In this document: positions 2,642 to 27,658 of the stretch, one piece after another | How the letters are laid out: every line of letters begins with the position of its first letter | How positions within the stretch are numbered: position 1 is the first letter of the stretch | Assembly: GCA_009936995.1 (NCBI GenBank) | Contig: JAACDH010000172.1 | Coordinates: 1 to 48,200, forward strand | Length of the DNA stretch: 48,200 nucleotides | Direction of reading: 5' to 3' | Origin: Rhodobacterales bacterium | GTDB taxonomy: Bacteria; Myxococcota_A; UBA796; GCA-2862545 | The notes under the pieces: model-generated | What the model saw: the letters and a program-made list of their open reading frames with translations, nothing else | Database searches by the model: none | What the model was told of the DNA's origin: nothing | Program-made: the position numbers and the translations under genes

Positions 2642-2920
2642 AACGTCGAGCTCGATCGGGTACTCGACAGGCTTCACACGGAAACCAGAGGCTCTTATAC
2701 GGGAGTCGCCAGGATTTCAAGAATTGTATTCGAGCCACTTCGGGCTCCCCTCATCGCCGGGGATACACTTGACGAACGACCGTCTCTCGCCCAAGATACG
2801 CTTATTGAGCGTACAGAACTCGCCCTGATTGAGTACCTGGTGACGGGCGGGCTTGATAGGGCCAAGGGCGACCTTGTGCGCTGGGTCCAGACGGCGCGCT
2901 ACGTTAGCCTGGAGGCGTGA
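2642..2920 (+). pseudogene. 5'-truncated gene translationally coupled to recC, unrecognised
   Basis: An open frame of 92 codons follows a TAG at 2639-2641 and ends in a TGA (2918-2920) that shares its last base with the recC ATG. Its last codons carry the GGAGG that serves recC. It has no ATG, GTG or TTG near its beginning, yet the C-terminal half reads like real protein: LIERTELALIEYLV, then GGLDRAKGDLVRWVQ, then TARYVSLEA. I do not recognise the family. I infer that it is the 3' end of the original first gene of the rec operon, cut by the rearrangement that brought the DUF481/IS segment up to about 2620-2642. An intact short gene with an unusual start cannot be excluded. Confidence 0.5.
2694..2720 (-). 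promoter_or_regulatory. Candidate sigma-70 promoter for the DUF481 gene
   Basis: On the minus strand TTGAAA (2720-2715) and TATAAG (2699-2694) are separated by 15 bp, one to two bases shorter than ideal. Transcription would start about 65-70 bases before the DUF481 start codon. The elements stand out in GC-rich sequence. They lie inside the truncated open frame that precedes recC. Confidence 0.4.
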
Positions 2921-9500: not shown

Positions 9501-10622
9501 GATCCAGACGGCGCTCCCATTGGCCTCGACCTCAGCTGGAAGCAACTCAGCTACTCTTCGATTACCCGTATACGTCAGACCAAAACCGTGGCCCTTCGGT
9601 CCCAGGTGCTTCGGCAAGAGGCCGCGCTAGCGGGCCGAGACGTCGATCAGCAAACCGATCGCGCCCAAGACGTCGCGCGCACCATCCAAGACCGGCTGCG
9701 GCTGGCGCTTCCCCTCGCGTACGACGAGACAGATGTACCGTTGGCGAACTTTCCAGGTGGCGCCGATGCGGGAACGTTCCTGCACGAGCTGTTCGAGGTG
9801 ATGGACTTCCAAAAGTTTCCAAGGAGTCCTAGCGGCGACGCGACCCTCGGTCGGGCCGAGCTCGAGCGCACCCTCGATCGACTGGGTCCTAAGCACTCCA
9901 TGAACCGGTCCGATTGGCGTCAAATCCTGCACGAAGGCCTGCCTCAGGTGCTGCAGACGCCGCTGGGAGGCCCGTTGGGCGACCTTCGCTTGGCCGACGT
10001 GCCTCGAAGCCGCCGCCTCGACGAGCTGGCGTTCGATTTGCCAGTGGCAGGGGGGGCTGCCCATCGTCGCCCCCAAGCCGATGGGCATGTGCCTTGGCCC
10101 GAGCGGGTGAGTGGCGCCGCCTTTGGTCAGGCCTTCGGGCTGGCGGCCGGCAGCGGTCCGTCGGCGACCTACCTCAATGGCCTGAAGAACGCCTGGCAAG
10201 ATCAGGATTTTGCCGGCTTTCTAACCGGCAGCATCGACTTGGTGTTTGCCACCGATCCCCAGGCGGGTGCACAGCGGTTCTACGTGGTGGACTACAAGAG
10301 CAATAAGCTCGATCACCTGCGCGAAGGCGAGCATCCCAGCGCCCACTTCTGCCAAGCGTGGATGCGGTACGAAATGGAGCATCACGACTACTTTGTACAG
10401 GCAACGCTGTACTCGGTGGCGGTGCACCGATACTTAGAACACCGAATACCGGACTATGACTACGACACGCACCACGGCGGTGCCTTGTATCTGTTCTTCC
10501 GCGGCATGGTGGGCGAAGAGACGCTCGTAGACGGCGGATCTCCGATGGGCGTGTACCCCTATCGTCCACCGCGTGCGCTCATCGAACATCTCGACGATCT
10601 CCTTGAAGGAAGGGTCCAATGA
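6585..10622 (+). CDS. recB: Exodeoxyribonuclease V beta subunit RecB
   Basis: RecB supplies the 3'-to-5' helicase and the only nuclease active site of RecBCD, and loads RecA after Chi. The Walker A motif ASAGTGKT lies at residues 23-30 and the UvrD/Rep-type motif II LIDEFQDTD follows near residue 400. RLLYVALTRAR marks the last helicase motif. The C-terminal PD-(D/E)xK nuclease is complete: His1067 in GTFLHELFE, Asp1218 in GSIDLVF, and Asp1236 with Lys1238 in VVDYKSN, matching the E. coli set H956/D1067/D1080/K1082. The length of 1345 residues is longer than the 1180 of E. coli. It overlaps recC and recD by ATGA at each end. All catalytic residues are present, so an active nuclease is expected. 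Confidence 0.97.
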   Translation: MNISARAFIEEGQLQTGITLLEASAGTGKTYQITNLVVRLVAEHKVPMREILVVTFTKAATAELVDRIRLRLAEAAAVLRGEGEPSERDGMLTSLLARSVENECRREWLQRIVEAQESFDQALISTIHGFCQRMLQQNAFESGAEFGLELMTSDRELISNLVDDYLSAQVNTASLERYRFLVNVCGFSRESLMQTAGAALRDPDMALVPMDLVPSAPADFSDCVVEALSDWDSGSEALGRRFDLGKPTQPNLKKNPESVLFESARGRTYVSSGLKKLDEPVRAWLVACAGPKMPPVPAKVAKYFNRANFDVTLASGVVFEHPLFDEICALVQIGVEVHDGQSSNEKTAPWHGFVAWIRGAYEARKAVDRVVAFQDLLRKLATGLQDDRLKNAIRPRFRAALIDEFQDTDRLQWEIFRTLFQTPQHFLFLIGDPKQAIYGFRGANIHVYVQVKQAADRWLTMDTNFRSDARYVEAMNAVLGRWPASLFDDPNIPYEQVDADALRTPVDRLIPPDSLGDSPWAHTQAAPLQIRFAHGLGEGENEAIKKGDLGASLPVRVAADIVDFLEAGWRLQEHAEDVPRPITPGDIAVLVRSGWQARAVMSSLLEAGVPAVMPAAESVYASDEALDLQRWLQAIARPTNARTARASAISRLFGWDAAGLRAVDDPDNDSVAWDQWLDWLTRWQLSVLRNGVLSTFRSAMERYDVRGRLLHYPDGERRLTDLLHVLELTHRAEQAQRMGLEGLIRWLADQRQGTIDDDGSAEQRLERDDAAVRILTMHKSKGLQYPVVWAPFLYDGVLVRAADKERLVFPTANDPATRMLDLQQKPFPRQKLAHIQLSASDAHAERIRLLYVALTRARHRCVVYDGKFTDGRIKNGGLEQSSLGLLLHSLSLDAAHEQAEHRFGGVAQRISEMSPNDLYSDLQGWSEACTRDDGSVLVGVSKAALDGELTAWQPVDAAQSEGRLNARVFGRVDPDGAPIGLDLSWKQLSYSSITRIRQTKTVALRSQVLRQEAALAGRDVDQQTDRAQDVARTIQDRLRLALPLAYDETDVPLANFPGGADAGTFLHELFEVMDFQKFPRSPSGDATLGRAELERTLDRLGPKHSMNRSDWRQILHEGLPQVLQTPLGGPLGDLRLADVPRSRRLDELAFDLPVAGGAAHRRPQADGHVPWPERVSGAAFGQAFGLAAGSGPSATYLNGLKNAWQDQDFAGFLTGSIDLVFATDPQAGAQRFYVVDYKSNKLDHLREGEHPSAHFCQAWMRYEMEHHDYFVQATLYSVAVHRYLEHRIPDYDYDTHHGGALYLFFRGMVGEETLVDGGSPMGVYPYRPPRALIEHLDDLLEGRVQ

Positions 10623-12835
10623 CCGCCGAGCGCATCATGCCGCCGCTGTTCGCCCCCCTGCGCCCGCAGCCAGGTTCACCCGAGGCCGCGGTCACCCAGC
10701 GGCTGCGCCCCTTCTTCGAGGCGGGCATCCTCAATGGCCTGGCGCTGCATGTGGTGGCCCGTTTGGGACGTCGCACGCAGACCCTCGACCCCGACGTGTT
10801 GTTGGCGTTGGCCCTGGCTGTTCGGGCCCCGCAGCGTGGGCATATCTGCGTAGATCTCAGCGACGATAACGTCCGACGCTTGCTTCCAGCTACGGTCGAT
10901 CCGAGTGCCGGTTCCGTTGACTTGACCCCCTTGGTGCTACCCGTTCAGGGTTGGTCTGAAAAGGTAGCGGCGTGCGCGCGGCTGGTTCGAATGGCCGGTC
11001 AGCCTGGGCTTACGCCGTTTGTGCTGGACGGGCACTGGCTGTACACCGACCGGTACTGGTCCTACCAAGCAGACCTCGCCCATCGTTTGTCCACGATGGC
11101 GGCCCAAACCCAAGGCGTGGCCCTTGCGGCGGTCGACTACCCCATGGTCGCTCAAGGCCTAGATTTCTTGTTCCGGCCGCCGCTGAAGAACGGTCATTGG
11201 CCCGCCGAATCGGTCGACCTCAACCGCCAGCGTCTGGCCGGAGGCGTGGCCCTCACCCGCCAACTCGCGGTCATTACCGGCGGCCCTGGTATGGGCAAGA
11301 CGTGGACCGTTCGCAACCTGTTGGCCTTGCTGTGGCTTCGTCACCAGGCCCGCTTCGACCGCGGTGAGGTCTCTACCCGTGAGCCAGCGGTGGCGTTGAC
11401 GGCGCCCACGGGAAAGGCGGCGGGTCGCATGAAAGAGGCCCTCCGCGCCAAGCTTCAAGACGAGTTTGTGCCGTCAGTAGGCCGCTTTATAGACGACGCG
11501 GACCGCGTCCAGCGGTTGGCCGAGTTTGTACAGGGCATCGAGACCCGCACCCTGCATCGGCTGCTGGGCTGGCAGCTCAGCAACCCCACCCGTTTTCGAC
11601 ACAACGCGATTCATCCACTGCCCTACGATATTGTCGTGGTCGACGAGGCCAGCATGGTCGACTTCGCGATGATGTCGAAGTTGGTCGCGGCGGTCGGCGG
11701 TGTGGGGCCCGGTGGCGAGCCTACCCGATTGCTGCTGCTGGGCGATCGGCATCAGCTTGCGAGTGTTGAGGCCGGCACAGTGCTCGCCGACATCTGCGGA
11801 GATAGTCAGGCAGATCGGGCGCAGATCACCCAGGCCGGGGCTGCCGTATTGGCGCCGTTTCCCAAGCTGCAATCGCACATTCAGGCCGGTCAGTCCCAGG
11901 TTCAGCAGGTTGCCGGACCGCCGTTCCGAGACGCCATCGTTCAGTTCAATCGCACCTATCGATTTGGTGCGGACAGCGGCATTGGCCAGTTCGCTGCCGC
12001 CTGTCTGCACGTCCCCTTCGACGTACAGCGGGCCACCGATGTGCTCACCCAAAGCAGCGATGTCGCCTTGATCTCTCCGGCGCTTGATGCGCGTCTCCCG
12101 CCCCGCATCGAAGACACCCTGCTTCGCGGCTACGGGCCGTACCTGCGCATGCTGAGTGAAGGGGCAGCCGATCTGGCCCGTTTCCCTACCCAAGACGTGT
12201 TCCACCGACGCCTACTGGAGACCTTCGACCGCTTTCGAGTGCTGTGCGCCCACCGCGCCGGCCGAACCGGCGTGCGTGGCGTCAACGAGGCAACCTTGGG
12301 GCTGCTGCGCGAGCGTCGCCTGGTGACGGAGTCGGGCCGTTGGTTCCTGGGCAGGCCCGTATTGGTCCAGCGCAACGACTACAATGTGCGGCGAAGTAGT
12401 GGCGGTAAAGGTCTCTACAACGGCGACATCGGTTTGGTAGTGATGGCCAACATCGGGGGCGTTGTACAGAGAGTGGTGGCCTTCCCCGGGGTGGACGGCC
12501 TCCCGCCGGCCGATCCTCAGGGGGTGTTTCCGGCGCTGAATCTCAACGACTACCAAGACAAGCGGGTGGTCGAGTATGTGGTGCCGTCTCGTCTTCCCGA
12601 ACACGACACCGCTTTTGCCATGACCATCCACAAGTCCCAAGGCTCCGAGTTTGAGCATGTGCTCATCGTGCTTCCCAATGAACAAAGTCCCATCCTTACC
12701 CGCGAGCTGATCTACACCGGTGTCACCCGCGCGAAGGGTCAGATGACGATGCTCAGCAGCCGAGAGGTCCTCTCCGATGCCCTGGAGCGAACCGTTCAAC
12801 GGGCGAGTGGTCTGCGACGGGCGTTGTGGCCATAG
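10619..12835 (+). CDS. recD: Exodeoxyribonuclease V alpha subunit RecD
   Basis: RecD is the 5'-to-3' superfamily-1 helicase motor of RecBCD and is needed for full nuclease activity. Walker A GGPGMGKT is at residues 221-228; the Met replaces the more usual Thr in this loop and should be tolerated. VVVDEASMVD is motif II. TIHKSQGSEFEHVLIVLP with YTGVTRAKGQMTM gives the last motifs, all typical of RecD/TraA-like helicases. At 738 residues it is longer than E. coli RecD (608), mostly in the N-terminal region before Walker A. Its ATG overlaps the recB stop (ATGA), and its 3' end overlaps the GTG start of the downstream methyltransferase by 10 bases. Confidence 0.96.
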   Translation: MTAERIMPPLFAPLRPQPGSPEAAVTQRLRPFFEAGILNGLALHVVARLGRRTQTLDPDVLLALALAVRAPQRGHICVDLSDDNVRRLLPATVDPSAGSVDLTPLVLPVQGWSEKVAACARLVRMAGQPGLTPFVLDGHWLYTDRYWSYQADLAHRLSTMAAQTQGVALAAVDYPMVAQGLDFLFRPPLKNGHWPAESVDLNRQRLAGGVALTRQLAVITGGPGMGKTWTVRNLLALLWLRHQARFDRGEVSTREPAVALTAPTGKAAGRMKEALRAKLQDEFVPSVGRFIDDADRVQRLAEFVQGIETRTLHRLLGWQLSNPTRFRHNAIHPLPYDIVVVDEASMVDFAMMSKLVAAVGGVGPGGEPTRLLLLGDRHQLASVEAGTVLADICGDSQADRAQITQAGAAVLAPFPKLQSHIQAGQSQVQQVAGPPFRDAIVQFNRTYRFGADSGIGQFAAACLHVPFDVQRATDVLTQSSDVALISPALDARLPPRIEDTLLRGYGPYLRMLSEGAADLARFPTQDVFHRRLLETFDRFRVLCAHRAGRTGVRGVNEATLGLLRERRLVTESGRWFLGRPVLVQRNDYNVRRSSGGKGLYNGDIGLVVMANIGGVVQRVVAFPGVDGLPPADPQGVFPALNLNDYQDKRVVEYVVPSRLPEHDTAFAMTIHKSQGSEFEHVLIVLPNEQSPILTRELIYTGVTRAKGQMTMLSSREVLSDALERTVQRASGLRRALWP

Positions 12836-14973
12836 GTCGTTCTGTGGGGCCGGCGTTGGCGTCGCTGGCGGAGTCGCTGCAACAGATCCACAGCCCCGAG
12901 GAGGGTGTTGATTTTCTGATGGTCCGGGTAGTCAACGCTTTAGTGACCCAGCTGGGCCTGTCCTTCGCAGATGCGTCACACCTGCCGCTGGAATCCAATC
13001 CGCTGTCGCTCGAACCCGCCCAATGCCGCGCTCTGGCGGATCTCGAGACCCTGGATTGGACCCAGATAGAACCGGAATTTCTGGGCGCTCTGTTTGAGGA
13101 GACCTTGGCCTTGAACCCGCGCAAGCGGAAGCGTCTCGGGGCGCACTACACGCCTCGGATTCAGGTGGAGCGGCTGGTCATTCCAACGCTCATCGCGCCG
13201 CTCCGACAGGACTGGGAAGCGTGCATCAACCTGGCCGAGGTCGATGAATTCCTCGACCGTTTGTCGTCCATTCGAGTGCTCGATCCTGCTTGTGGCACGG
13301 GTAATATCCTCTGTACATCCTACCTGCTTCTCCGTGAATTCGAACGGGAAGTGCTGGCGTACCGCGCCTCGCTCGTCGGAGCAGCGCCGCTGGAGCGGGC
13401 CGCTGCGGTAGGCGTCCACCAGCTGATCGGTATCGAGATCGACCCCGCTGCCGCCCGTGTCGCCAGGGTGGTGCTGTGGATGGCTCATGTGCAGGATGTG
13501 CATCGGTCGAGGGAGCTGGCCGGGCGGGTCAAGCGCCCCACAATCGAGGTGCGCGATGCCCTGGTGCAGATCGGTTCCGAAACGCGCCGGTCTTCGTGGC
13601 CATATGCCGACTTTATCGTAGGAAATCCGCCTTTTATGGGTAACAAGGTCATGCGTAGTCGCTTGGGCGCGTCCTACGTTCAGACCCTGCGGGCGCTGTA
13701 TCCGACCGTTCCGGATAGCGTAGATTTCGTGATGTTTTGGTGGCATCGGGCTGCCGAACTGGTGCGCTGTGGGTCGGTTCGTCGCTTTGGCTTCATTACC
13801 ACCAATAGCATCACCCAAAGCCAGAATCGGCAGGTCATTCAGGCCCATCTGGACGCCCCAGATCGGCCGCTGCGTCTGTTGATGGCCATCGCCGACCACC
13901 CGTGGATCGACGCCGGTGCAGCGGTCCGCATCGCCATGACTGTCGGCGGCTGCACGTCCGCGGAGGCGGTTGTCTCCGAAGTTGTTGAGGGTTTAGCGTC
14001 CGGCCAGCCCGTGGTTATCCGCCACCGACGCGTCCCAGTGATTCATGCCGATCTCCGGGCCGATGTGGATGTCACCCAGGCGGTCGTACTCCGGTCGAAT
14101 CAAGGGCTGTCCTTTCAGGGCATGAACCTGGTGGGCAAGGGCTTTCGACTCACCGGGTCAGAGGTCCAGAAACTGGGTTTCGACGTTCATAATCTTCCAC
14201 CGATTATCAAGCCATACCTCAGCGCTCGCGAGATGATGCAGGTGCGGCATCATCGCTACGTGATCGACGCCTATGGGCTCACCGCGGCACAGCTTCAGTC
14301 CAGTTACCCGGGTTGTTACCGGTGGCTGGAGGCGAACGTGAAGCCCCAACGAGATCAGAACAACCGGCCCTCTCGTCGGAAGAACTGGTGGCTGTTCGGC
14401 GAGACCGTTCCGAGACTGCGCACAGCCTGGAGCGGACTCGAGCGCTTTCTCATCACCCCCGAGACCTCGAAACATCGGGTGTTTGACTGGTGTTTCGCGG
14501 GCACCATTCCCGATCACACGCTGTACGCCATTGTCCTACCCACAGACGCGCACTTTGGGGTGCTTCAATCTCGGATTCACCGGGTGTGGTCGCTGCGGAC
14601 AGGGGGTCGGTTGGTCGACCGTCCCCGGTATAATAACACCCGTTGTTTTCTGCGTTTTCCCTTTCCTGATGGGTCCGAGACTGCCCGCCATGACGTCGGG
14701 GAATCCGCCGGTCTGTTGCTGGCGCACCGGCAAGCCCTGTGTGGGAGTGAGCCGGGCTTGACGCTCACCCAGCTGGCCAATCAGGTGGGGTCTTCGAAGT
14801 CGGCGTCCAACGACATCCAACACATGCGTGCCCTGGAGCATCGCTTGAATGACGCCGTAGCGCGGGCCTATGGCTGGCCAGTCTCCCTCAGTGAAACCGA
14901 AATCCTGGCCGAGTTAGTGGCGTTGAACCTGCGTCATGCGGCGCGTGAACAGAAGGGCGAAGTGCCGGTTTAG
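12826..14973 (+). CDS. MmeI-like N6-adenine DNA methyltransferase without nuclease domain
   Basis: This enzyme should transfer methyl from S-adenosylmethionine to N6 of adenine in a specific DNA site. RRLGAHYT-like KRLGAHYTPR (about residue 105) precedes the SAM-binding motif I DPACGTGN (153-160). GIEIDPAAARVARVVLWM is motif II-III, and the catalytic motif IV is NPPF (267-270). The following GNKVMRSRLG, TNSITQ and AAVRIAM blocks resemble the methylase part of MmeI/type IIL enzymes. The 715 residues start about 100 residues before motif I with no PD-(D/E)xK nuclease, and the C-terminal 300 residues would hold target recognition. The GTG at 12826 lies inside recD; a GTG at 12844 would avoid the overlap. 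It is tied to recCBD by overlap, which suggests a self-marking or regulatory partner of RecBCD. That link is inference. Confidence 0.85.
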   Translation: MAIGRSVGPALASLAESLQQIHSPEEGVDFLMVRVVNALVTQLGLSFADASHLPLESNPLSLEPAQCRALADLETLDWTQIEPEFLGALFEETLALNPRKRKRLGAHYTPRIQVERLVIPTLIAPLRQDWEACINLAEVDEFLDRLSSIRVLDPACGTGNILCTSYLLLREFEREVLAYRASLVGAAPLERAAAVGVHQLIGIEIDPAAARVARVVLWMAHVQDVHRSRELAGRVKRPTIEVRDALVQIGSETRRSSWPYADFIVGNPPFMGNKVMRSRLGASYVQTLRALYPTVPDSVDFVMFWWHRAAELVRCGSVRRFGFITTNSITQSQNRQVIQAHLDAPDRPLRLLMAIADHPWIDAGAAVRIAMTVGGCTSAEAVVSEVVEGLASGQPVVIRHRRVPVIHADLRADVDVTQAVVLRSNQGLSFQGMNLVGKGFRLTGSEVQKLGFDVHNLPPIIKPYLSAREMMQVRHHRYVIDAYGLTAAQLQSSYPGCYRWLEANVKPQRDQNNRPSRRKNWWLFGETVPRLRTAWSGLERFLITPETSKHRVFDWCFAGTIPDHTLYAIVLPTDAHFGVLQSRIHRVWSLRTGGRLVDRPRYNNTRCFLRFPFPDGSETARHDVGESAGLLLAHRQALCGSEPGLTLTQLANQVGSSKSASNDIQHMRALEHRLNDAVARAYGWPVSLSETEILAELVALNLRHAAREQKGEVPV

Positions 14974-17458: not shown

Positions 17459-20074
17459 TTAAGGCAGCGCTCCGTCGATAATCCACTGTTCGATGATGGC
17501 AAGATCTGCCGCGGGTAGCCCGCCCGAGCCCGGCGGTCCTGCCGCACCGGCTGGCATCTGGTTGCCGGTGCCACCGACGCTGGCGTGGGTGTTGTTGAGC
17601 TTGTGCCACAGGTAGCTGTTGGCGGGGTCGTAGGGGGTGACTCGGAACATGCTGGGCACGTCGTCTGAGGGCACGTTGACCACAACAGGGTAGGCGTTGG
17701 TGAGGTCCATGCCGCTGCTGGCGACCGGCGGCGCGTGGCAGGCGCCCAAACACTCGGCGTCGAAGATGGGTTGCACGTTGAGGGCCATCGAGAGCAGGCC
17801 GCCGTCCTCGTCGATGCCGTCGACGCAGTTGTCGTCAATTCCGTTGGCGAAGTCGTAGAGGATACCTGTGTTTACCGTGGCCAACGAGTCGTCGCAGTCG
17901 GTGTTGTCGATGACGCCTACGCCGGAGCCTGGACACGCCAGGGTGCCGGCGTCGAATTCGTCTCCGTAGCCGTCGAAGTCGTTATCGGCGTAGTACACGT
18001 CGCCGTCGACGGGGTTGTTGTTGGGCAGGCCCGAGCAGTCGTGGTCGATGGCGTCGCAGTGCTCGTCGGCGCCGGGGTTGATGGCGTTGTCGGTGTCATT
18101 GCAGTCGCCGTTGTTGGTGGCCGCCAGCGCCAGCGCGGGGTCGCAGTCGTAGAATTCGGCCAGGAAGACGTCGCCGTAACCGTCGTTGTCGTTGTCTGGG
18201 TAGTAGCGCTGGGCGTCGATGGCGTCGTCGTCAATGCCGCCCGAGCAGTTGTTGTCGGCACCGTCGCACACCTCGTTGGCACCGGTGTGGATGGCGTTGT
18301 CGCTGTCGTCACAGTCGAGGTCGTTGCGGGCGAAGCCGGGCTTGACCATCGAACACTCGATGATCGGCGCGCCTGTCCCCTCGCCATCATTGTCGTCGTC
18401 GAGGTACCAGTAGGTGGCGTCCAAGGCGTTGTCGTCTGGGATGCCATTGCAGTCGTTGTCGGCGTTGTCGCACACCTCGATGCCGTCGGGGTTGCTGCTG
18501 CCGTCGTTGTCGTCGCAGTCGCCTGCGTTCATGCGCCAACCTGCCATTGGGGCCGCACAAGACCAGGTGCCCAGGGTGTTGTCGTCGCCGAACCCATCGG
18601 TGTCGGCGTCTGGGTACCACACGGTCGCGTCGGTGGCGTTCACGTCCACGCCGTCGATGCAGTCGTTGTCGACGCCGTCACAGATCTCGGTCGCATCAGG
18701 GTTGATGGCGGCGTTGGTGTCGTTGCACTCCTCGCAGGCAAAGAAGCCGTCGCCGTCGCCATCGACCGCGCCCACGAGGCCGTCGCAGTTGTAGTCATTG
18801 GGGTCGAGGCAGTCATTCTCTACGACGCCCGGATTGTAGGCGGTGTTGGTGTCGTCGCAGTCGCCGCCATCAGAGACGGTCTGCCAGGGCGCCTCGCAGG
18901 CGTAGACGATGGTGGCGTCGTCGCCGTACAGGTCGCCGTCGGCGTCGGTGAACCAGGCCGTCTGGTCGATGGCGTTGTTGTCGGCGGTGCCATCGCAGTC
19001 GTTGTCGACGCTGTTGCAGGACTCGGGGGCGCCGTCGAAGATGGTGGCATTGCTGTCGTTGCAGTCGCCGTTGGTTTGGGTCCAGCCCAGGGAAGGGGCC
19101 CCGCAGGAGAGCACGCCGGCTGCGCTCTCGTCGCCGTCGAGGTCTTGGTCGAGGTCGGGGTACCACAGGGTGGTGTCGGTGGCGCCCAGCTGGTCGTCGC
19201 CGTCGCAGTCATGGTCTACCGCGTCGCAGCGCTCGGTGGCGCCGGGGAACACGGTGTCGTCTGTGTCGTCGCAGTCGTCACATGCGAAGGACCCGTCTGC
19301 GTCTGCGTCTACGCCGAACGCCGCGCCATCGCAGTTGTAGTCGCTGGCGTCGCGGCAGTCGGCCTCGATGACGCCGGGATTAAAGGCCACGTTGGTGTCG
19401 TCACAGTCGCCGGAAAGTTCGGCGTATCCCGTGGGAATGGCGCCGCACTGGGTGAGGGGGCTGGCGGTGTCGCCGTAGCCGTCTTGGTCGAGGTCTTGGT
19501 AGGAGGTGGTGGCGTCGACGGCGGTGGGGTCGTCGATTTGACCGTCGCAGTTGTTGTCGATGCCGTCCTCGCACAGCTCATCGGCGCCCGGGAAGATGCT
19601 GGCATCCGTGTCGTCGCAGTCGCCATCTTCAGGGGAAACACCGTCATTGTCGTTGTCTTGGACCACCATTGGATGGGGTGCGCCGTCCAGAATCCACAGC
19701 TCGATGTGTCCGATCTGGCTGTGGGCCAAGCGCCCGCCCAACGGCATGTCGCCCACGTCGGTGTCGGCGAGTACTCCGCCAGTCACCCGCCACAGCTTGG
19801 AGGCGTCTGGCTCGAAGGGGACCACAAAACGACCGGCCTCGGCGTCTAAATCGAGGGCCAGGGCTTCGGGGAGCGGCATGAAGTCGGCCGAACCTCCGGG
19901 CGCGTGGCAGGACTGGCAGTGGTTCTCGGACAGCTCGGTGATGCCATCCCAGTCGGGCGTGTAGATCAGCGCGTCGGGGTTGTCTTCGTCGACGATCGGC
20001 GTGCCGATGAGGGGGTCATCGCAGGCGGTCGCACAAAGGAACAGGAGTACAAACGGCAGGCGCGGATGGGGCAT
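17459..20074 (-). CDS. MopE-repeat lipoprotein flanked by two haem-c-like modules
   Basis: This is a predicted lipoprotein of 871 residues with signal peptide and lipobox CATAC (Cys18). The N-terminal module has a CXXCH haem motif, HCQSCH (Cys53-Cys56-His57), and distal MPLGG and WILDGAP segments typical of short cytochrome-c-like domains. The middle (about 135-760) holds about ten repeats. Each pairs DxDxDGYGD with GDCDDTxxxxxPGAxExCDGxDNDCDG, the putative metal-binding motif of MopE-type surface proteins. The C-terminal module has NVQPIFDAECLGACH, where the two Cys are separated by three residues (CX3CH) instead of two, followed by MPAG and WIIDGA. Both ends may bind haem, with the repeats as a Cys/Asp-rich spacer. 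Redox or metal roles at the cell surface are inference. Confidence 0.85.
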   Translation of the reverse strand: MPHPRLPFVLLFLCATACDDPLIGTPIVDEDNPDALIYTPDWDGITELSENHCQSCHAPGGSADFMPLPEALALDLDAEAGRFVVPFEPDASKLWRVTGGVLADTDVGDMPLGGRLAHSQIGHIELWILDGAPHPMVVQDNDNDGVSPEDGDCDDTDASIFPGADELCEDGIDNNCDGQIDDPTAVDATTSYQDLDQDGYGDTASPLTQCGAIPTGYAELSGDCDDTNVAFNPGVIEADCRDASDYNCDGAAFGVDADADGSFACDDCDDTDDTVFPGATERCDAVDHDCDGDDQLGATDTTLWYPDLDQDLDGDESAAGVLSCGAPSLGWTQTNGDCNDSNATIFDGAPESCNSVDNDCDGTADNNAIDQTAWFTDADGDLYGDDATIVYACEAPWQTVSDGGDCDDTNTAYNPGVVENDCLDPNDYNCDGLVGAVDGDGDGFFACEECNDTNAAINPDATEICDGVDNDCIDGVDVNATDATVWYPDADTDGFGDDNTLGTWSCAAPMAGWRMNAGDCDDNDGSSNPDGIEVCDNADNDCNGIPDDNALDATYWYLDDDNDGEGTGAPIIECSMVKPGFARNDLDCDDSDNAIHTGANEVCDGADNNCSGGIDDDAIDAQRYYPDNDNDGYGDVFLAEFYDCDPALALAATNNGDCNDTDNAINPGADEHCDAIDHDCSGLPNNNPVDGDVYYADNDFDGYGDEFDAGTLACPGSGVGVIDNTDCDDSLATVNTGILYDFANGIDDNCVDGIDEDGGLLSMALNVQPIFDAECLGACHAPPVASSGMDLTNAYPVVVNVPSDDVPSMFRVTPYDPANSYLWHKLNNTHASVGGTGNQMPAGAAGPPGSGGLPAADLAIIEQWIIDGALP

Positions 20075-20165: not shown

Positions 20166-21419
20166 TTAGGTGCCGTCTCGGATGGCGTCGGCGTCGGATT
20201 GGTTCCAGGGCGCAATCCACGGCAGCATCAACATACCGGGTATCGCCAGGGCGGCGCAGAGCAGGAAGAACGCGGTGTATCCGTAGCTGTCCACCAGATA
20301 GCCCGTGCTGGCATTGGCGAATGTCCGTGGGATTCCGGTCATGCTTGTGAGCAGGGCCAGCTGCGTCGCGGTGTATCGCTTGTCGGTAGAGCGGGCGATG
20401 AAGGCAACGAATGCGGCTGTTCCGAGCCCCACTCCCAGGTATTCGAAGCTGACGACCCAGAACAGCCAGGTCATGTCGGCGCCGTGCTCGGCCAGGGCGG
20501 CGAATCCGAAGATCGACAGCAACTGGACCACACCAAACAGCCACAGCGCCTTGTTGATGCCGATCTTCAGCATCAACGCGCCGCCGAGAAAGCCGCCGGC
20601 GATGGAGGACCACAAGGCTGCAACCTTCGCTACGGTGCCAATCTCGGTCTTGGTGAAGCCCAAATCGAGGTAAAACGGCGTAGATAGCGCGGTGGCCATG
20701 CTGTCGCCTAGCTTGTAGAGCAGCATGAACGCCAGTACACCGAGGGCCTGTTTTACCCCTCGAGAACGGAAGAATGCGCCGAATGGTTCAATGACAGCTT
20801 CCCGGAATGAGGCGGGGGGTGGGACATTGGTCTCGGGCTCTTGCATCAGAAGCGTAGTGGCGATGCCGACGCCCATGAACGCGGCGACCACCAAGTGCAC
20901 TTGGGACCACGGCAGGATGTCGGCGAGAATGAGGGCTAGGGAGCCGGGCACCAGTGAGGAGATTCGATAGGCGTTGACGAACAAGCTGTTGCCAAAGCCA
21001 AGCTCCTCATCGGGGAGGATTTCGCGGCGCAGGGCATCGAGGGTGACGTCTTGGCTGGCGCTTGCGAAGGCGATGACCGAGGTGATGGCGAGCACGGGCC
21101 CGATGGCTCGGACGGGGTCGACCAGACTCAATGAAGCGATGGCCAGCATCAGCACAATTTGCGTGATGAGCGCCCAGCCACGGCGGCGTCCGAGGGCGCT
21201 GGGGCGGTAGCGGTCCATCAACGGAGACCAAAGGAACTTCCAAGTGTATGGGAATGCGACAAGAGAAAAGAGGCCGATGGTGGTGAGGTCGACACCGCGA
21301 TCTCGCAGCCAGGCCGGTAGCAGTTGGTAGAGCACGTAGAGCGGTAGGCCCGACGAGCACCCGGTGGCCATGCAGATCAACATCCGCGAGCTTGTGAACG
21401 TGCGCCACAACTTCAACAT
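20166..21419 (-). CDS. ampG: AmpG-like muropeptide permease (MFS)
   Basis: AmpG imports anhydromuropeptides from the periplasm for cell-wall recycling. This 417-residue protein has about 12 hydrophobic helices. It starts with the family pattern SSGLPLYVLYQLLPAWLRDRGV, continues with FPYTWKFLWSPLMDR, and carries FASASQDVTLDALRREILP, close to the ASQD...DA motif of AmpG. The second half begins with LLYKLGDSMATALSTPFYLDLGFT, also as in AmpG. It stands as a single gene between the MopE-type lipoprotein and the HTTM gene, with about 90-100 bases on each side. No ampD, nagZ or beta-lactamase gene is near, so a role in wall recycling rests on family identity alone. Confidence 0.85.
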   Translation of the reverse strand: MLKLWRTFTSSRMLICMATGCSSGLPLYVLYQLLPAWLRDRGVDLTTIGLFSLVAFPYTWKFLWSPLMDRYRPSALGRRRGWALITQIVLMLAIASLSLVDPVRAIGPVLAITSVIAFASASQDVTLDALRREILPDEELGFGNSLFVNAYRISSLVPGSLALILADILPWSQVHLVVAAFMGVGIATTLLMQEPETNVPPPASFREAVIEPFGAFFRSRGVKQALGVLAFMLLYKLGDSMATALSTPFYLDLGFTKTEIGTVAKVAALWSSIAGGFLGGALMLKIGINKALWLFGVVQLLSIFGFAALAEHGADMTWLFWVVSFEYLGVGLGTAAFVAFIARSTDKRYTATQLALLTSMTGIPRTFANASTGYLVDSYGYTAFFLLCAALAIPGMLMLPWIAPWNQSDADAIRDGT

Positions 21420-21516
21420 CGACTCTCCTCATCGCGCGCCCATGCTACCGCGTTGGATGCGCTGGCACCGACCTATCTCGCTCTGGTGATTGGGCGACCG
21501 GGTACCTCCCATTGAC

Positions 21517-22377
21517 TCAGCGTATTGTGGGGCCCGTCGACTGGGTCCCAGACCCACGATTGAGCAACTTCTCGGTCCACGGGCTGAACAGCAGCGGGTA
21601 AAACGCGAGCATTCCGAAGCTAAAGATACCCAAATCCATCCACAGCGCGATGCCCACGTGCATGAAGGCGCCGAAACAAGCCCAGTAGGGCGACCACCGG
21701 GTGAGAATCAGGAACGAAGTGAATTCTAGGATAATGGTGGACCAACTTCCGAAGGTGAAGATTTCTTGATAGTTGTACCAGAAGGCCGGGTCGAGATGGC
21801 CACCCAGTGGGTCGACCAAAATGGTGTACAGCTCGGGCAGCTTTCGGGGGTCCCACCAGGCGGTGGTGTTGGTGATCTTGGCCATGCCAGCCGACAGGTA
21901 CACAAACACCAGCATCCAATTGATCAACATCACCGGCCACTGGGCAATTTTCTTGGGGACCTTCTTCTGAGTGACCTCGCTAAAAAGCAGGATAATTAGG
22001 GTCGTTCGGATCATCCGGTCGACGCCGCGATCGCCGGGGAGGTCCATATGGCCAAGCTGACTGTAGGCGAGGATGCCGGTGACCAGGGCGGGTCGGGTGA
22101 GGATGCCGGCCGAGATGAACGGCATGCTCAGCACGATGACGGCCCACAAGAACGGGCCCGCGTACATCCAGTCGCCGAACACGAACCACTTGGCGGCGCC
22201 CGACGAGGTTCCGCCGTGGCTGGCGTCGAAGAGGATGGCCTGGGCGGCGCCGCGGTGTGCCATGGACAGCATGTCGGCGAGGATGACCAGGGGCATGAGT
22301 CGGCGCACCCAGACGAGGGGCCGGGCGTCGACGGGCCGGTATACGGCGTTGACCCAACGGGTCCAGAGGTTGATCAT
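21517..22377 (-). CDS. HTTM-domain membrane protein (gamma-carboxylase-like fold)
   Basis: HTTM proteins share the horizontally transferred transmembrane domain of vitamin K-dependent gamma-carboxylase; bacterial members are mostly uncharacterised. The 286-residue product opens with WTRWVNAVYRPVDARPLVWVRRL and has about six hydrophobic helices. It carries VYLSAGMAKITNTTAWWDP, matching the Ala-Lys-x-x-x-x-x-x-W pattern of the family, and ends in GMLAFYPLLFSPWTEKLL. I chose the ATG at 22377 because it overlaps the upstream stop as ATGA; a start at 22392 would lie inside the upstream gene. It is the last gene of a minus-strand run that includes two members of an unknown paralogous family. Carboxylase activity is not claimed. 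Confidence 0.85.
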   Translation of the reverse strand: MINLWTRWVNAVYRPVDARPLVWVRRLMPLVILADMLSMAHRGAAQAILFDASHGGTSSGAAKWFVFGDWMYAGPFLWAVIVLSMPFISAGILTRPALVTGILAYSQLGHMDLPGDRGVDRMIRTTLIILLFSEVTQKKVPKKIAQWPVMLINWMLVFVYLSAGMAKITNTTAWWDPRKLPELYTILVDPLGGHLDPAFWYNYQEIFTFGSWSTIILEFTSFLILTRWSPYWACFGAFMHVGIALWMDLGIFSFGMLAFYPLLFSPWTEKLLNRGSGTQSTGPTIR

Positions 22378-22961
22378 TGGGAGAGGACCCACTCGGGCGC
22401 GCTGGCGACGTATCGGACCAGGTCGGTGGTGACCGCTGGGGAGTCGAACTCCGCGGTTGTGCAGCGAACCACCACCTGTTTGGCCAGTGGAAAGTCGGCC
22501 CGTGCGTGGGTGAGAATAAACGCCATTAGCGAGGTGTCGTTGCGGCTATCGCCCTGGCAGGTGGTTTTCACGATGGGACGCACCCGTCGGTAAGTGAGCA
22601 CGGGAGCGAGCCAGTCGTGGGGGGGGTCTTTGGAGCGGTAGATCAGGGTGCCGTCGATGTAGATCTCCATGCGCTCGACTGCATTGGGCCCACCTCCGTA
22701 CAGTCCCCAGCTCTGGGCAATTCGGAGGGGTCGCTGAAGGGGAGAGATCAGGTTGACCAAAGGCAGCCGGACGGCCCGGTTGGCGTCAGCGGCGGCGATG
22801 ACCACGAAGCCGAGGGGCTCTCTGCTCATTCGGGTGCGCGACTTTTCGGTGGTGAGGCGACTGGCGCTGAGTTGGTCGATCCCGGGCGTGGCCAGAATAC
22901 CCTCACTGACACAGAAGAACAGCACCAGTGCGGCCGTGATGTGCTGTTTGGGGGAGTGCAT
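22374..22961 (-). CDS. Small exported partner of the HTTM protein
   Basis: The reading frame is open further upstream, but the natural start is the ATG at 22961, which lies 2 bases after the stop of the preceding gene. The 195-residue product begins with a hydrophobic segment ITAALVLFFCVSEGIL, a signal peptide or single membrane anchor. The rest has the pattern LRIAQSWGLYGGGPNAVERMEI followed by LIYRSKDPPHDW and YRRVRP. Proteins with such a Q-x-W-x-(M/L)-(F/Y) segment are often found next to or fused after HTTM domains, so I take it as the periplasmic partner. It overlaps the HTTM gene by ATGA. The molecular role is unknown. Confidence 0.7.
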   Translation of the reverse strand: MHSPKQHITAALVLFFCVSEGILATPGIDQLSASRLTTEKSRTRMSREPLGFVVIAAADANRAVRLPLVNLISPLQRPLRIAQSWGLYGGGPNAVERMEIYIDGTLIYRSKDPPHDWLAPVLTYRRVRPIVKTTCQGDSRNDTSLMAFILTHARADFPLAKQVVVRCTTAEFDSPAVTTDLVRYVASAPEWVLSQ

Positions 22962-22963
22962 TG

Positions 22964-24649
22964 CTACGTCCGGTCGAAAGGAAGGCCGCCAATCCACAGA
23001 CAGTCGGGGCGCTCTGGGTCGGGTTGTAACGTGGTGTAAAGCGTTGGGTGGTGTGGCGTTTGGCCCGGTCGTTCGAGCTGAATACCGCCCGTGGTGAGCT
23101 GGTAGCGGCCGGGACCGTCGGGGCCCTCGAATTTCCCATTCCGGTGGAAGGTCCACTGGGTTTCGCCGTCTCGGGACCGCCAGCTGCCGTTGAGGACGCG
23201 GCCGGCCAGATTGAAGTCGCAGCGCGTGGCCTGCTCGCCGTCGATCTGCAGGCTGTAGGTGTCACGGACGATCTGACTGGTGGTGGACTTGCCGCTGGGC
23301 CACCGGATGGTCAGCTCTTCTTCTTCGCGGCGGTAGGTGCCCACTTGGTGGCCGGCGTCGGAGTGGGCCATCCAGTCGGGGTTGGCGTTGGCGGGTGGGA
23401 AGTTCGAGAAGATACCTTCGCGGGTGAACACCAGCCACATCTCGCCCCAGGGCATTGACCGGAGGTAGACCCCGTTCAGCCGGTGCTCAGCGGGCAGGGC
23501 CTCGGTGGGCAACGCGGGCGCGGGCTCAGGTTCCGGTGTGGGCTCTGCAAATGGATTGGCCGGTGCATTGGGTGCCGCAAACGGGTTCTCGGGCTCGGCC
23601 GGGGCCGCAAACGGGTTCTCGGGCTCCGCAGCAACCTCGTGGTGTTGACTTTCCGGGTGCCCGTGTGCGGCGGTCGCTGCGCCGGCTAAGTTCGCGGGCA
23701 GCGAGGGTGGCGGCGGGGGGGGCGCGGCAGGTTTCTCGGACGCTGGAATGGGCCGGGGCTCGGCGGCGGGATCGTCTTCCCAGACGGCGAGCATTACGCG
23801 CGACTCTGCGGCGAATCGAGCGGTGAGGTAGCGCCAGGCGGGTAGGGCATCAGCCCCTGCGGCCACGGCGTCCTGGAGGGCGGGCCCCTTGCCGCGGACG
23901 ACGGCTGGCAGCACCCCTTGAAGGCTTGCGGCGAGCTGACCGGCTTGAGGCGCGCGCTCCAGGGCTTTGCGGTCGAGGAGATCGATCATCGCGTCGAGGG
24001 TCTCTTGGGCGTCTTGCACGCCCTTTCGCCCTATGACGCCGAGCAGCTTTCCGGCCACGCGGCGGGACTGTTCGGCCACCAAGTCCTTGATAAACGTGCC
24101 ATTTGCGGCCTGTACGTCCTCGGGGGAGGGCACTGCGACCTCGAGGGTCACATAGTAGAGCAGCAGCTCTAAGCCGCTGTCCGTCGATTCTAGCAGGTGC
24201 ACCCGCTGGGCCGGTTCGCGGGGAATCAGCTGGGTAAGGATGTAGGCCAGCCCCAGCGCTTTTAGCGCGGCGTCGGCTTTTTGTTGGTCGTCGGCGCCGG
24301 CACCGGGGCCTTTGTCGCCGAGAAATAGCGAGAGGGCGCTGCGAACGCCGGTGAGGATGGTGATGCCGGCGTCGCCGGTGTCGAGGCTCTTGGCGGCGAA
24401 CAGGGCGTTGTCGATCTGGGCGTCGTTTGCCAGGGCCTTGGCACGGGCTCGCACGTCAGCGGAGGCTTCGGGGGCCACCGACGCAAAGGTGTCGTCGAGG
24501 CTGTCCCAGTTGGGCAGGCCGGGCGCGCCGGGCGTGGCCTTAAACAAGGCGTCGCAGAGTCGGGCGGTTAACGAGCGAAGTTTGTAGTCGGCAAGCTGCT
24601 GATCGAGCAGTACTCCACCTTTCAGCTTGCCTTCGCTCACATCCACCAT
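22964..24649 (-). CDS. Paralogue A: unknown helical domain + NPF-rich linker + lipocalin-like domain
   Basis: This 561-residue protein is the longest of three paralogues here. The N-terminal domain (about 1-290, mostly helical) carries the shared blocks LDTGDAG (89-95), QQKADAALKALGLAY (122-136), SGLELLLYYVTLEVAVP (158-174) and GADALPAWRYLTARFAAES (265-283). A Pro/Ala-rich linker (about 295-390) contains near-repeats of AEPENPFAAP. The C-terminal domain (about 395-561) has MWLVFTREGIFSNFPP, GTYRREEEELTIRW and GRYQLTTGGIQL, and looks like the lipocalin-like, beta-rich domain found in many myxobacterial proteins. No signal peptide is seen. It overlaps paralogue B by 13 bases, or 4 (GTGA) if a later GTG starts it. 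Function is unknown. Confidence 0.75.
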   Translation of the reverse strand: MVDVSEGKLKGGVLLDQQLADYKLRSLTARLCDALFKATPGAPGLPNWDSLDDTFASVAPEASADVRARAKALANDAQIDNALFAAKSLDTGDAGITILTGVRSALSLFLGDKGPGAGADDQQKADAALKALGLAYILTQLIPREPAQRVHLLESTDSGLELLLYYVTLEVAVPSPEDVQAANGTFIKDLVAEQSRRVAGKLLGVIGRKGVQDAQETLDAMIDLLDRKALERAPQAGQLAASLQGVLPAVVRGKGPALQDAVAAGADALPAWRYLTARFAAESRVMLAVWEDDPAAEPRPIPASEKPAAPPPPPPSLPANLAGAATAAHGHPESQHHEVAAEPENPFAAPAEPENPFAAPNAPANPFAEPTPEPEPAPALPTEALPAEHRLNGVYLRSMPWGEMWLVFTREGIFSNFPPANANPDWMAHSDAGHQVGTYRREEEELTIRWPSGKSTTSQIVRDTYSLQIDGEQATRCDFNLAGRVLNGSWRSRDGETQWTFHRNGKFEGPDGPGRYQLTTGGIQLERPGQTPHHPTLYTTLQPDPERPDCLWIGGLPFDRT

Positions 24650-25662
24650 CCCGCGGCGCCGACGCTGCTAAATCCGACCGCAAACAGGGCGATGAAGAAG
24701 CCGAAGCAGCCACCGCGCTTGGCGATGGGGGCGTCGGGTAGGTCGTCCTTGGAGCGGGTGAACTTGATCTCGGTGGACGCCGGGTTGGAGGCGGACACGG
24801 TCTCGGCCTTCAGAGCCAGCGCGCGCTTCAGCACTTCTTCGGCAACCAATCGACCGCCGAGGAAGCGGTAGACAGGCAGTAAGTCCGCGCCGGTTGCGGC
24901 CACACCCGCCGCCTTGTCGCCGACGCTCATGGCCTTGGGCAGGTACTCGGTGACCGTGGTGGCGATGGGGGTGAGGTGCTGGCTGGCCATGTCGACCATG
25001 GTGGCCAACGGACCGGTGAGCTGCTGGAGCACTCCCATCGCGGCCGCGGCCTCTTCTTCGCCGGTGATGGCGGCCAGCTTGGTTTGTTGATCGGGTCCGT
25101 ACTTGTCGAACAGGGACGTCAGGAAGCTGGCGCCCCCGGAGAGGGCGTTGTCGGTGAACGGCAGGCCGACCTCGATGGCGGCGTAGTAGAACATCATCGC
25201 CTGACCGGATTCGGACTTGCGGAACTGGGCGATCTTGTCGCCGATGTCGCCGTCGTAGAGCTTGTGGATGACGTAGGCGATGGCCAGGGCCTTGACCACC
25301 GCGTCGACCGCTTGTTGGGTGTCCGTCTCGAGTGCGTTGATGCGCTCTTCGGTGTCTTTGGCTTGGTACATCTTCCAGGCGCTTGCCGCACCCGAAAACA
25401 CGCCGATGCCGCTGTCGGCGGAGTCTAGGGCGGTGATGGCCCACAGCGCCTGCTGCATGTCCTCGTCTTTTGCGATCTTCTGGGCGGCGTCGAGCACCGG
25501 CTTCTTGGCGTCCTCGTCGAGCACCGTCAGGCCTGCCACCAGACTGTTCCAAGGGGTGATGGGCTGTGCAAAAGGCACCACGTTGCAGATGCCCTTTACC
25601 AGGCGCACTGAGTACGCGGAGGCATCAAAGCTAAGCAGTAGTTCGTCGAGATCGGTGGCCAT
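24637..25662 (-). CDS. Paralogue B: unknown helical domain with C-terminal membrane anchor
   Basis: The frame is open upstream, but the start is the ATG at 25662, placed after an AGGAG about 7 bases before it; sequence above it is antisense to paralogue C. The 341-residue product shares the family blocks in the same order: LDSADSG (79-85), QQAVDAVVKALAIAYVIHKL (116-135), SGQAMMFYYAAIEVGLP (152-168) and GADLLPVYRFLGGRLVAEE near 270. It ends in a 24-residue hydrophobic stretch, GCFGFFIALFAVGFSSVGAA, suggesting a tail-anchored membrane protein with the domain in the cytoplasm. It heads the minus-strand run and is divergent from paralogue C across 55 bases. Function unknown. Confidence 0.75.
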   Translation of the reverse strand: MATDLDELLLSFDASAYSVRLVKGICNVVPFAQPITPWNSLVAGLTVLDEDAKKPVLDAAQKIAKDEDMQQALWAITALDSADSGIGVFSGAASAWKMYQAKDTEERINALETDTQQAVDAVVKALAIAYVIHKLYDGDIGDKIAQFRKSESGQAMMFYYAAIEVGLPFTDNALSGGASFLTSLFDKYGPDQQTKLAAITGEEEAAAAMGVLQQLTGPLATMVDMASQHLTPIATTVTEYLPKAMSVGDKAAGVAATGADLLPVYRFLGGRLVAEEVLKRALALKAETVSASNPASTEIKFTRSKDDLPDAPIAKRGGCFGFFIALFAVGFSSVGAAGWWM

Positions 25663-25717
25663 GAAGATGGCTCCTGCGGTAGGAGTGGGACCGAGAGTGA
25701 ACCACGGGAGAATCTCT

Positions 25718-26560
25718 ATGACTACGATCGACGAAGCACTGGGCGAGTTCAGCGAGGACGCGGTCACCGCAAAGCTGCTGCGAGGCATCTACGGCGTCAT
25801 CCCCTATTCCCCCAAGTTTCCACACTATAACGGCGTTTCTGATGCGGTAATCGCCCTCGATCCCGGCGCGTCTGCCGGCACCATCGACCGCGCCATTGGC
25901 CTGGCGGGAGACTCCGAGCAGCTGTCCGATCTGATCTGGATGAGCCAACTCCTCGACAAAGGCGACGCGGGCTACGCTATCGCCACGGGGCTATTCAGCG
26001 CCTACAAGCTGTGGCAAGGCAAGGGCCTCGAGGCCCTCGAGAACGACAACCAGCAGCGCAACGACGCGGTTCTAAAAGGTCTAGGGATGGCCTATATGGC
26101 GCATAAAGCCTACTCCGGCTCCGTCGGCGAGAAGGTCGCGGGCTTCCGTGCTTCTTCGGGCGGTCAGGCCCTGGCGATGTACTACGCGGCGGTCGAGGTG
26201 GCGCTGCCCTTCGCCGACAACGCGGCCCTGGCGAGCGGCACCCTGGTGTCCGACCTGTACACCAACCATGGCGCCAAGCAGTTCAACCGCCTAGCCACCA
26301 TGGCCAGCGGACACGATCTGGGCGGCGCCAAAGAGATGCTGGTCGGCATCACCGAGCCGGTGGGTAAGGTGGTCAACCTGGCCAAGGGCTATATCGACCC
26401 GGTGGCGGCCGCAGCCAAGCCCTTCCTTCCCACCGCGGTCAGCGGCGGCGACAAGCTGGCGGGACTGGTGGCCTCCGGCGCCGATATGCTGCCGGTCTAC
26501 CGTCTGCTGGGCGCGCGCCTGGCCGCCGAGTCCGCCGCTCGTGCCGCAGTGACGGGCTGA
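25718..26560 (+). CDS. Paralogue C: stand-alone copy of the unknown helical domain
   Basis: The start is the ATG at 25718, preceded by GGGAGAATCTCT. The open frame reaches much further upstream, but that part is antisense to paralogue B. The 280-residue product is the bare domain: LDKGDAG (79-85), NQQRNDAVLKGLGMAYMAHK (111-130), SGGQALAMYYAAVEVALP (147-164) and GADMLPVYRLLGARLAAES at the C-terminus. It aligns almost without gaps to paralogue B. No signal peptide, membrane segment or catalytic motif is visible. The next gene follows after 3 bases, so it forms an operon with the DUF2817 hydrolase. It shares only 55 bases of upstream DNA with paralogue B, so the two are probably controlled together. 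Confidence 0.75.
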   Translation: MTTIDEALGEFSEDAVTAKLLRGIYGVIPYSPKFPHYNGVSDAVIALDPGASAGTIDRAIGLAGDSEQLSDLIWMSQLLDKGDAGYAIATGLFSAYKLWQGKGLEALENDNQQRNDAVLKGLGMAYMAHKAYSGSVGEKVAGFRASSGGQALAMYYAAVEVALPFADNAALASGTLVSDLYTNHGAKQFNRLATMASGHDLGGAKEMLVGITEPVGKVVNLAKGYIDPVAAAAKPFLPTAVSGGDKLAGLVASGADMLPVYRLLGARLAAESAARAAVTG

Positions 26561-26563
26561 TTC

Positions 26564-27658
26564 ATGAGTGACGCCACCGCATTTTCTCCTGACTACGTGT
26601 CGGCCCGGGCTCGGTTTCGCTCCGCTGCCTTGGCCATTGGGGCCCGCACCGAGGCCATCGAGATCGGTCAGATGGGTCCGGATGGCGACGTGCTCACCAT
26701 CGACGTGGCCATCTTGGGGGCCGGGTCGCCCAAGCGCGCGGTGGTTGTGTCCTCTGGACTGCACGGCATCGAGGGCTTCTTCGGCTCCGCGGTCCAAGCC
26801 GCCCTGCTCGAAGACGTGCTCGGTGGCTACACACCGCCCGACGACTGTGCGCTGGTGTTCCTGCACGCCCTCAACCCCTACGGCTTCGCCTGGTTGCGTC
26901 GCGTCAACGAAGACAACGCCGACCTGAACCGGAACTTCCTCGGTGAAGGCGAGGCCTACACTGGGTCGCCCGAAAAGTACGCCGCGCTCGACAACCTGCT
27001 CAACCCGCCCGAGCCACCGTCCGCGCTCAGCCGAATGACCTTCCTGCCCAAGGCGGTATGGAACATCCTGCGCTTGGGTATGCCGGCGCTCAAGAATGCG
27101 GTCGCAGGTGGGCAATACGACTATCCCATGGGGCTGTTCTTCGGGGGCTCGGGCCCCAGCAAGACCCAAGAGATCCTGGACCAGAACCTTCCCCGCTGGG
27201 TCGGCAGCTGCAGACGGGTGGTGCACATCGACTTCCACACCGGCCTGGGTCCGTGGGGCACGTACAAGCTGTTTGTCGACCACGAGAAGGGCTCCGAGGG
27301 CGAGGCCAAGCTGGCCAAGGCCTTTGGCGCAGATTGCGTTGAAGCCTGGGACAATAGCGGCACCTCTTACACCATCCGTGGTGGCATGGGAACCTGGTGC
27401 AAGAGCCGACTTCCAGCCGTGAACTACGACGTGCTGGCCGCCGAGTTCGGCACCCGTCATGTGCTCCAGGTCATCTCGGCTCTGCACGACGAGAACCGCG
27501 CTCGCAACTGGGGCGGCCAAGACCATCCGGCCACCGAGCCCGCCAAGCGCAAGCTGCGCGATACGTTTGCGCCGCCTGAGCGCCCCTGGCGCGATGCGGT
27601 CGTGCCGAAGGGTGTGCAGATCGTGATGACGGCGATGGACGCTGCGTTTGCCGAGTAG
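26564..27658 (+). CDS. DUF2817 protein, M14 carboxypeptidase-like hydrolase
   Basis: DUF2817 proteins belong to the zinc carboxypeptidase (M14) clan and are predicted metallo-amidases or peptidases. The 364-residue product has SGLHGIEGFFGSA, where His67 and Glu70 form the HxxE zinc motif. NPYGFAWLRRVNEDNADLNRNF (104-125) is the hallmark Arg/Asn substrate-binding block, and VVHIDFHTGLG contains His221 and His225, one of which would be the third zinc ligand. No signal peptide is seen, so it should act in the cytoplasm. It follows paralogue C after 3 bases. Its pairing with the unknown family suggests that the hydrolase acts on, or with, these proteins, but the substrate is unknown. Confidence 0.8.
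   Translation: MSDATAFSPDYVSARARFRSAALAIGARTEAIEIGQMGPDGDVLTIDVAILGAGSPKRAVVVSSGLHGIEGFFGSAVQAALLEDVLGGYTPPDDCALVFLHALNPYGFAWLRRVNEDNADLNRNFLGEGEAYTGSPEKYAALDNLLNPPEPPSALSRMTFLPKAVWNILRLGMPALKNAVAGGQYDYPMGLFFGGSGPSKTQEILDQNLPRWVGSCRRVVHIDFHTGLGPWGTYKLFVDHEKGSEGEAKLAKAFGADCVEAWDNSGTSYTIRGGMGTWCKSRLPAVNYDVLAAEFGTRHVLQVISALHDENRARNWGGQDHPATEPAKRKLRDTFAPPERPWRDAVVPKGVQIVMTAMDAAFAE

Follow-up and report, generated by a model that had tools for sequence, protein, structure and literature searches.

Paralogous genes of an unmatched all-helical domain in a Myxococcota-type order: a possible membrane-tethered scaffold

Several described systems resemble single parts of the locus presented here. EcsC (PF12787) is a helical family of similar size (240-position model) that occurs in the same genomes. 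NPF motifs, the ligands of EH domains, belong to eukaryotic endocytosis, and lipocalins/calycins are recognised by an 8-stranded up-and-down barrel. Bacterial tail-anchored proteins (e.g., PMC6794478, PMC3087755) are defined by a single C-terminal transmembrane segment with none elsewhere and are grouped by topology rather than by homology.

The locus comprises three genes, A, B and C (Table 1), in a stretch of 48,200 nucleotides (the window) on contig C598 of a draft genome of 724 contigs. Each gene contains one copy of a domain, termed here the alpha-domain, which defines an unannotated family with a confident, apparently unmatched fold; it is found as free, putatively anchored and putative adaptor-fused modules and is almost confined to one Myxococcota-type order. 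The quality of the model and the definition of orthologous types make the family directly testable by structural work.

Table 1. Features of the cluster and its immediate surroundings (window coordinates)
Feature	Position	Strand	Remarks
Gene A	22964..24649	-	561 aa: alpha-domain, then proline/NPF-rich linker, then beta domain at the C-terminus
Alpha-domain of A	23738..24607	-	profile match E 2.3e-88; A-type clade in tree
Proline-rich linker of A, three NPF motifs	23501..23737	-	
C-terminal beta-rich, possibly calycin-like domain of A	22967..23500	-	
Gene B	24637..25662	-	341 aa: alpha-domain + C-terminal membrane anchor (predicted)
Alpha-domain of B	24766..25653	-	profile match E 7.1e-108; B-type clade in tree
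B tail: juxtamembrane motif IK(Y/F)TRS, invariant Gly-Cys, C-terminal transmembrane helix	24640..24783	-	alignment of 11 B-type tails
B/C divergent intergenic region	25663..25717	.	55 bases; Shine-Dalgarno-like sequence per gene
Gene C	25718..26560	+	280 aa: bare alpha-domain
DUF2817 gene (M14-like zinc carboxypeptidase)	26564..27658	+	begins 3 bases past C

The alpha-domain and its fold

The initial annotation regarded the three proteins as paralogues, and they indeed have in common a domain of approximately 280 residues, with similarity across its whole length. In blastp comparisons, B matches C at 38% over 268 aa (E 2.8e-64), and A matches C at 30% over 262 aa (E 5.9e-32) and B at 25% (E 3.3e-23); 600 shuffled copies used as a control reached a maximum of 25 bits. 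C was correctly described as the bare domain (280 aa). The four motifs quoted for the family are present in A, B and C at nearly equal residue numbers, starting at residues 89/79/79 (LDxxDxG), 122/116/112 (QQxxxDAxxKxLxxAY), 158/152/148 ((S/G)GxxxxxYYxxxEVxxP) and 265/258/254 (GADxLPxxRxLxxRxxAE), respectively, except that C has GG instead of SG at the head of the third. Across 35 diverse members of the family, eight residues are invariant, namely P29, Q113, D116, K120, G149, P164, A252 and D256.

The statement that the domain belongs to no named family has held against every library tried and at the level of the fold. Searches of Pfam, NCBIfam, PHROGs, PADLOC and the PDB sequences, made with single proteins and with a profile of 48 members, found no credible relative. 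In particular, no Pfam family exceeded its curated cut-off for the alpha-domains of A, B and C, and 35 domain members yielded just single chance matches to Pfam (E >= 0.02). Despite the likeness noted above, EcsC genes sit at other loci than the alpha-domain genes, and the domain copies carry no EcsC matches. Membership in that family was rejected, as hhalign gave a probability of 1.0% over 62 columns, against 100% in the positive control, in which A and the proline-rich X type of other families were compared with B/C.

The structure prediction that had been proposed as a check was run on the C domain. AlphaFold2, supplied with C and 34 relatives, returned a confident all-helical model (pLDDT 91.2, pTM 0.89), for which Foldseek, run without a positive control, found nothing at E <= 0.001 among PDB and viral predicted structures. 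Against the PDB, again without a positive control, no match attained E <= 0.001 or TM >= 0.5, the values taken to indicate a shared fold; the best E was 0.29 (probability 0.28), and the top TM among the 50 matches listed was ~0.26. The fold is called unmatched with respect to the PDB and viral predicted structures because Foldseek covered these two libraries. No library tried recognises the domain, and novelty is claimed for the domain and the fold within these libraries, not for function. Among the titles and abstracts listed for myxobacterial NPF motifs or tail-anchored proteins, none concerns the alpha-domain family.

Parts attached to the domain in B and A

A C-terminal membrane anchor had been assigned to B, in agreement with hydropathy, which picks out one C-terminal segment (residues 319-337 of 341, mean 1.98); this is where every top-scoring stretch of the protein falls. 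With a single predicted transmembrane segment at the C-terminus and none elsewhere, B would qualify as tail-anchored by hydropathy, and it is by this predicted segment alone that it is likened to the bacterial tail-anchored proteins. Eleven aligned B tails share I(K/Q)xTxx, an invariant Gly-Cys and the C-terminal hydrophobic helix, and the tail is homologous between families f1 and f2. A role of the tail as a general sorting tag was rejected, since strong genome matches are confined to B genes.

The description of A as an NPF-rich linker joined to a lipocalin-like domain is accurate as to the three NPF motifs and the beta-rich C-terminus, but the motif is not conserved and the lipocalin label fits loosely. 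The resemblance to EH-domain ligands consists in three NPF repeats within a proline-rich arm; however, the motif is absent from three A orthologues and numbers 2-10 in four, and no bacterial reader has been identified. The count varies from 0 to 10 among A orthologues; NPF probably reflects linker composition, and its interpretation as a conserved docking signal was rejected.

The C-terminal domain of A was modelled with moderate confidence (pLDDT 65) as a beta-rich fold of ~13 strands, a predicted beta meander with repeated GxY/GxW strand starts. PDB entries 5cyb/3ge2 match this model with a probability of ~0.9, and a small lipocalin lipoprotein and fatty-acid-binding proteins are among the weak matches to it; against this, the Foldseek E values are 0.12-0.14 and TM is <= 0.37 by target. 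With so weak a resemblance, "lipocalin-like" is a plausible but tentative term for the A C-terminus. The beta domain occurs only with A-type copies of the window's family; in G008, where A is cut by a contig end, it lies on a separate contig. It was also sought as a free-standing module and was found only alongside A-type copies.

Types and conserved layout

In a tree of 55 domains, the proline-arm clade (A together with the X types of other families) is set apart from the rest with support of 100/98. Within the window's family, the A and B clades are supported at 99/95 and 100/100, respectively, and C of the window groups in a C clade (98/93) shared with copies from other families of the order. 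The tree thus resolves A, B and C as orthologous types. A single B clade across f1 and f2 is not rejected (p-AU 0.36). Unless cut by a contig end, A/X-clade members have a long proline-rich arm, and several have a transmembrane segment in addition; as a rule, B and C members lack an arm or transmembrane segment of this kind.

The start codons of A, B and C were placed by alignment to relatives. The start of A overlaps the end of B in the window, and between the start codons of B (25662) and C (25718) there are exactly 55 bases, as first described. Both B and C are preceded by a GGAG-type Shine-Dalgarno-like sequence. A sigma-70-like promoter was searched for in the 55-base gap and none was found, so that the divergent promoter placed there by the initial annotation is a presumed one.

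The survey of gene neighbourhoods that had been suggested revealed a conserved arrangement. The layout in which B precedes A on one strand and C diverges from them is kept in four genera (G000, G008, G010, G018), and in each of the six genomes of the window's family that have B, it sits immediately upstream of A, with overlapping stop and start codons in five. The sister family f2 (G026, G043, G054, G056 and a Baikal record) has a soluble copy immediately before B, on the same strand. Nearly every genome with B has it adjoining another paralogue, G051 and G053 being without a neighbouring copy; further tandem pairs, judged by position only, occur in G059, G060, G061, G283 and G291.

Of the shared neighbours, DUF2817 alone is seen again beside the cluster, in a single further genus; in G004 and G016, it adjoins the cluster in the place of the missing C. 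The other neighbours scanned (amidohydrolase, S41, M1, LTD and ASH-type Ig) are limited to single subclades and give no functional clue. Degenerate fourth copies are found in G010 and G019. In one genus, a shortened fourth copy on a long branch lies directly downstream of C (L035:7052-7783, L036:12256-12987) and retains the invariant Q, D and K.

Distribution and proposed role

Within the window's order, profile matches occur in 42 of 63 genomes at most, this figure being a ceiling since some weak matches are doubtful; those in G024, G025, G029, G031, G064 and G171, with near-zero or low subtype-profile scores, were set aside as chance or doubtful. Outside the order, just one genome of the phylum sample was matched (G111). 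A genome holds up to four copies; in the window's own, the fourth lies on contig C557 and has a Pro/Ala-rich tail cut by the contig end. At three further loci (L105, L111, L112), matches to the domain that are partial or doubtful are accompanied by long coiled-coil-like stretches rich in Ala and Glu.

The three proteins had been suggested to be subunits of one assembly. Orthologous types, a neighbourhood kept in four genera and the pairing of B speak for this, but the three are not an obligate set. The co-occurrence proposed as a check is likewise partial: all three types are present in four of the ten carrier genomes of the window's family, but C-only, A+B and A+C genomes exist. Accordingly modified, the reading we tentatively prefer, and consider quite possible without counting it as probable, is that of a modular, self-associating scaffold bound to the cytoplasmic membrane on its inner face. 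The lineage-specific, all-helical alpha-domain, presumably cytoplasmic, would associate with itself in homo- or hetero-oligomers. B, by way of its conserved C-terminal tail, would serve as the anchor. Co-translated with B, A would enter the scaffold by means of its own alpha-domain and offer its disordered proline/NPF arm and beta domain to a client or ligand, and C would be a soluble subunit or regulator. The scaffold draws directly on the paralogy, the confident helical model, the types, the conserved operon and divergent layout and the B-specific tail, and it is favoured mainly because B stays paired with another copy though almost every other gene nearby changes. We infer the oligomerisation through the domain, the topology in the membrane and the binding of a client. 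A bolder form, in which the new helical fold builds the core of an intracellular assembly that is specific to the order and tethered to the membrane, its anchor, adaptor and soluble subunits being interchangeable and drawn from one domain, is rather doubtful.

Counting against the scaffold, tandem duplication by itself also yields neighbouring paralogues, and the types A, B, C and X occur apart (C alone, A/X alone, A+B, A+C, lone B). The paralogues might instead be independent, that is, local duplicates of one domain that diverged to separate functions and form no mutual assembly. Near-complete genomes with a single type are common (C only in G009, G012 and G028; the proline-rich X only in G021, G022, G023 and G038), and the degenerate fourth copies point to ongoing duplication and decay. 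Among likewise near-complete genomes, A and B occur without C in G004 and G016, and A and C without B in G019, where A is split across two frames, possibly by an assembly error. These one- or two-type genomes, together with the 11 of the 21 genomes of the window's family that have no copy, argue against an obligate complex. However, the pairs and their orientation (B with A, a soluble copy with B) persist from genus to genus and in two families while the remaining neighbours nearly all change, and independence seems unlikely.

The charged invariant residues, which could indicate catalysis, also weigh against the scaffold. The domain may be an enzyme or ligand-binding domain, with Q113, D116 and K120 on one helix face and D80, D83, E160, D256 and E271 forming a putative buried polar site, and with the tails setting only its location. 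In every type these polar positions are invariant or almost invariant, and the shortened fourth copy of G010 still has Q113, D116 and K120; however, Foldseek matched no enzyme fold in the PDB, and the invariant residues may equally form a structural network, so that we hold this reading to be improbable. A part in defence or conflict, as a toxin-antitoxin or anti-phage module, would accord with a distribution that is patchy even among close genomes, about half of the family lacking the domain, but is very improbable, since PADLOC and PHROGs matches are absent, no viral or plasmid relatives of the domain were found, the nameable neighbours are non-defence genes, and the types track taxonomic families in the tree.

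Several further observations concern surrounding genes and public records. A few bases past gene A begins a gene for a protein of ~195 aa with a signal-peptide-like start, followed on the same strand by genes for an HTTM-domain protein and an MFS transporter (20166-22961); this run is not conserved beside the cluster in relatives. Elsewhere in the window, a RecC-like protein (Exonuc_V_gamma, RecC C-terminal domain) is followed by three large same-strand genes (2917-14973), probably a RecBCD operon, of which the first gene was scanned. The public record L061 (CAMASI010000097.1), which carries A-type and B-type genes, bears the title Klebsiella pneumoniae; it is identical to contig G004:C97 of the window's family, and its label looks wrong. 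An 871-aa protein with many Asp-rich DGDCDDT-type repeats (17459-20074) is likely a metal-binding surface protein; similar proteins are found in L039, L040 and L073.
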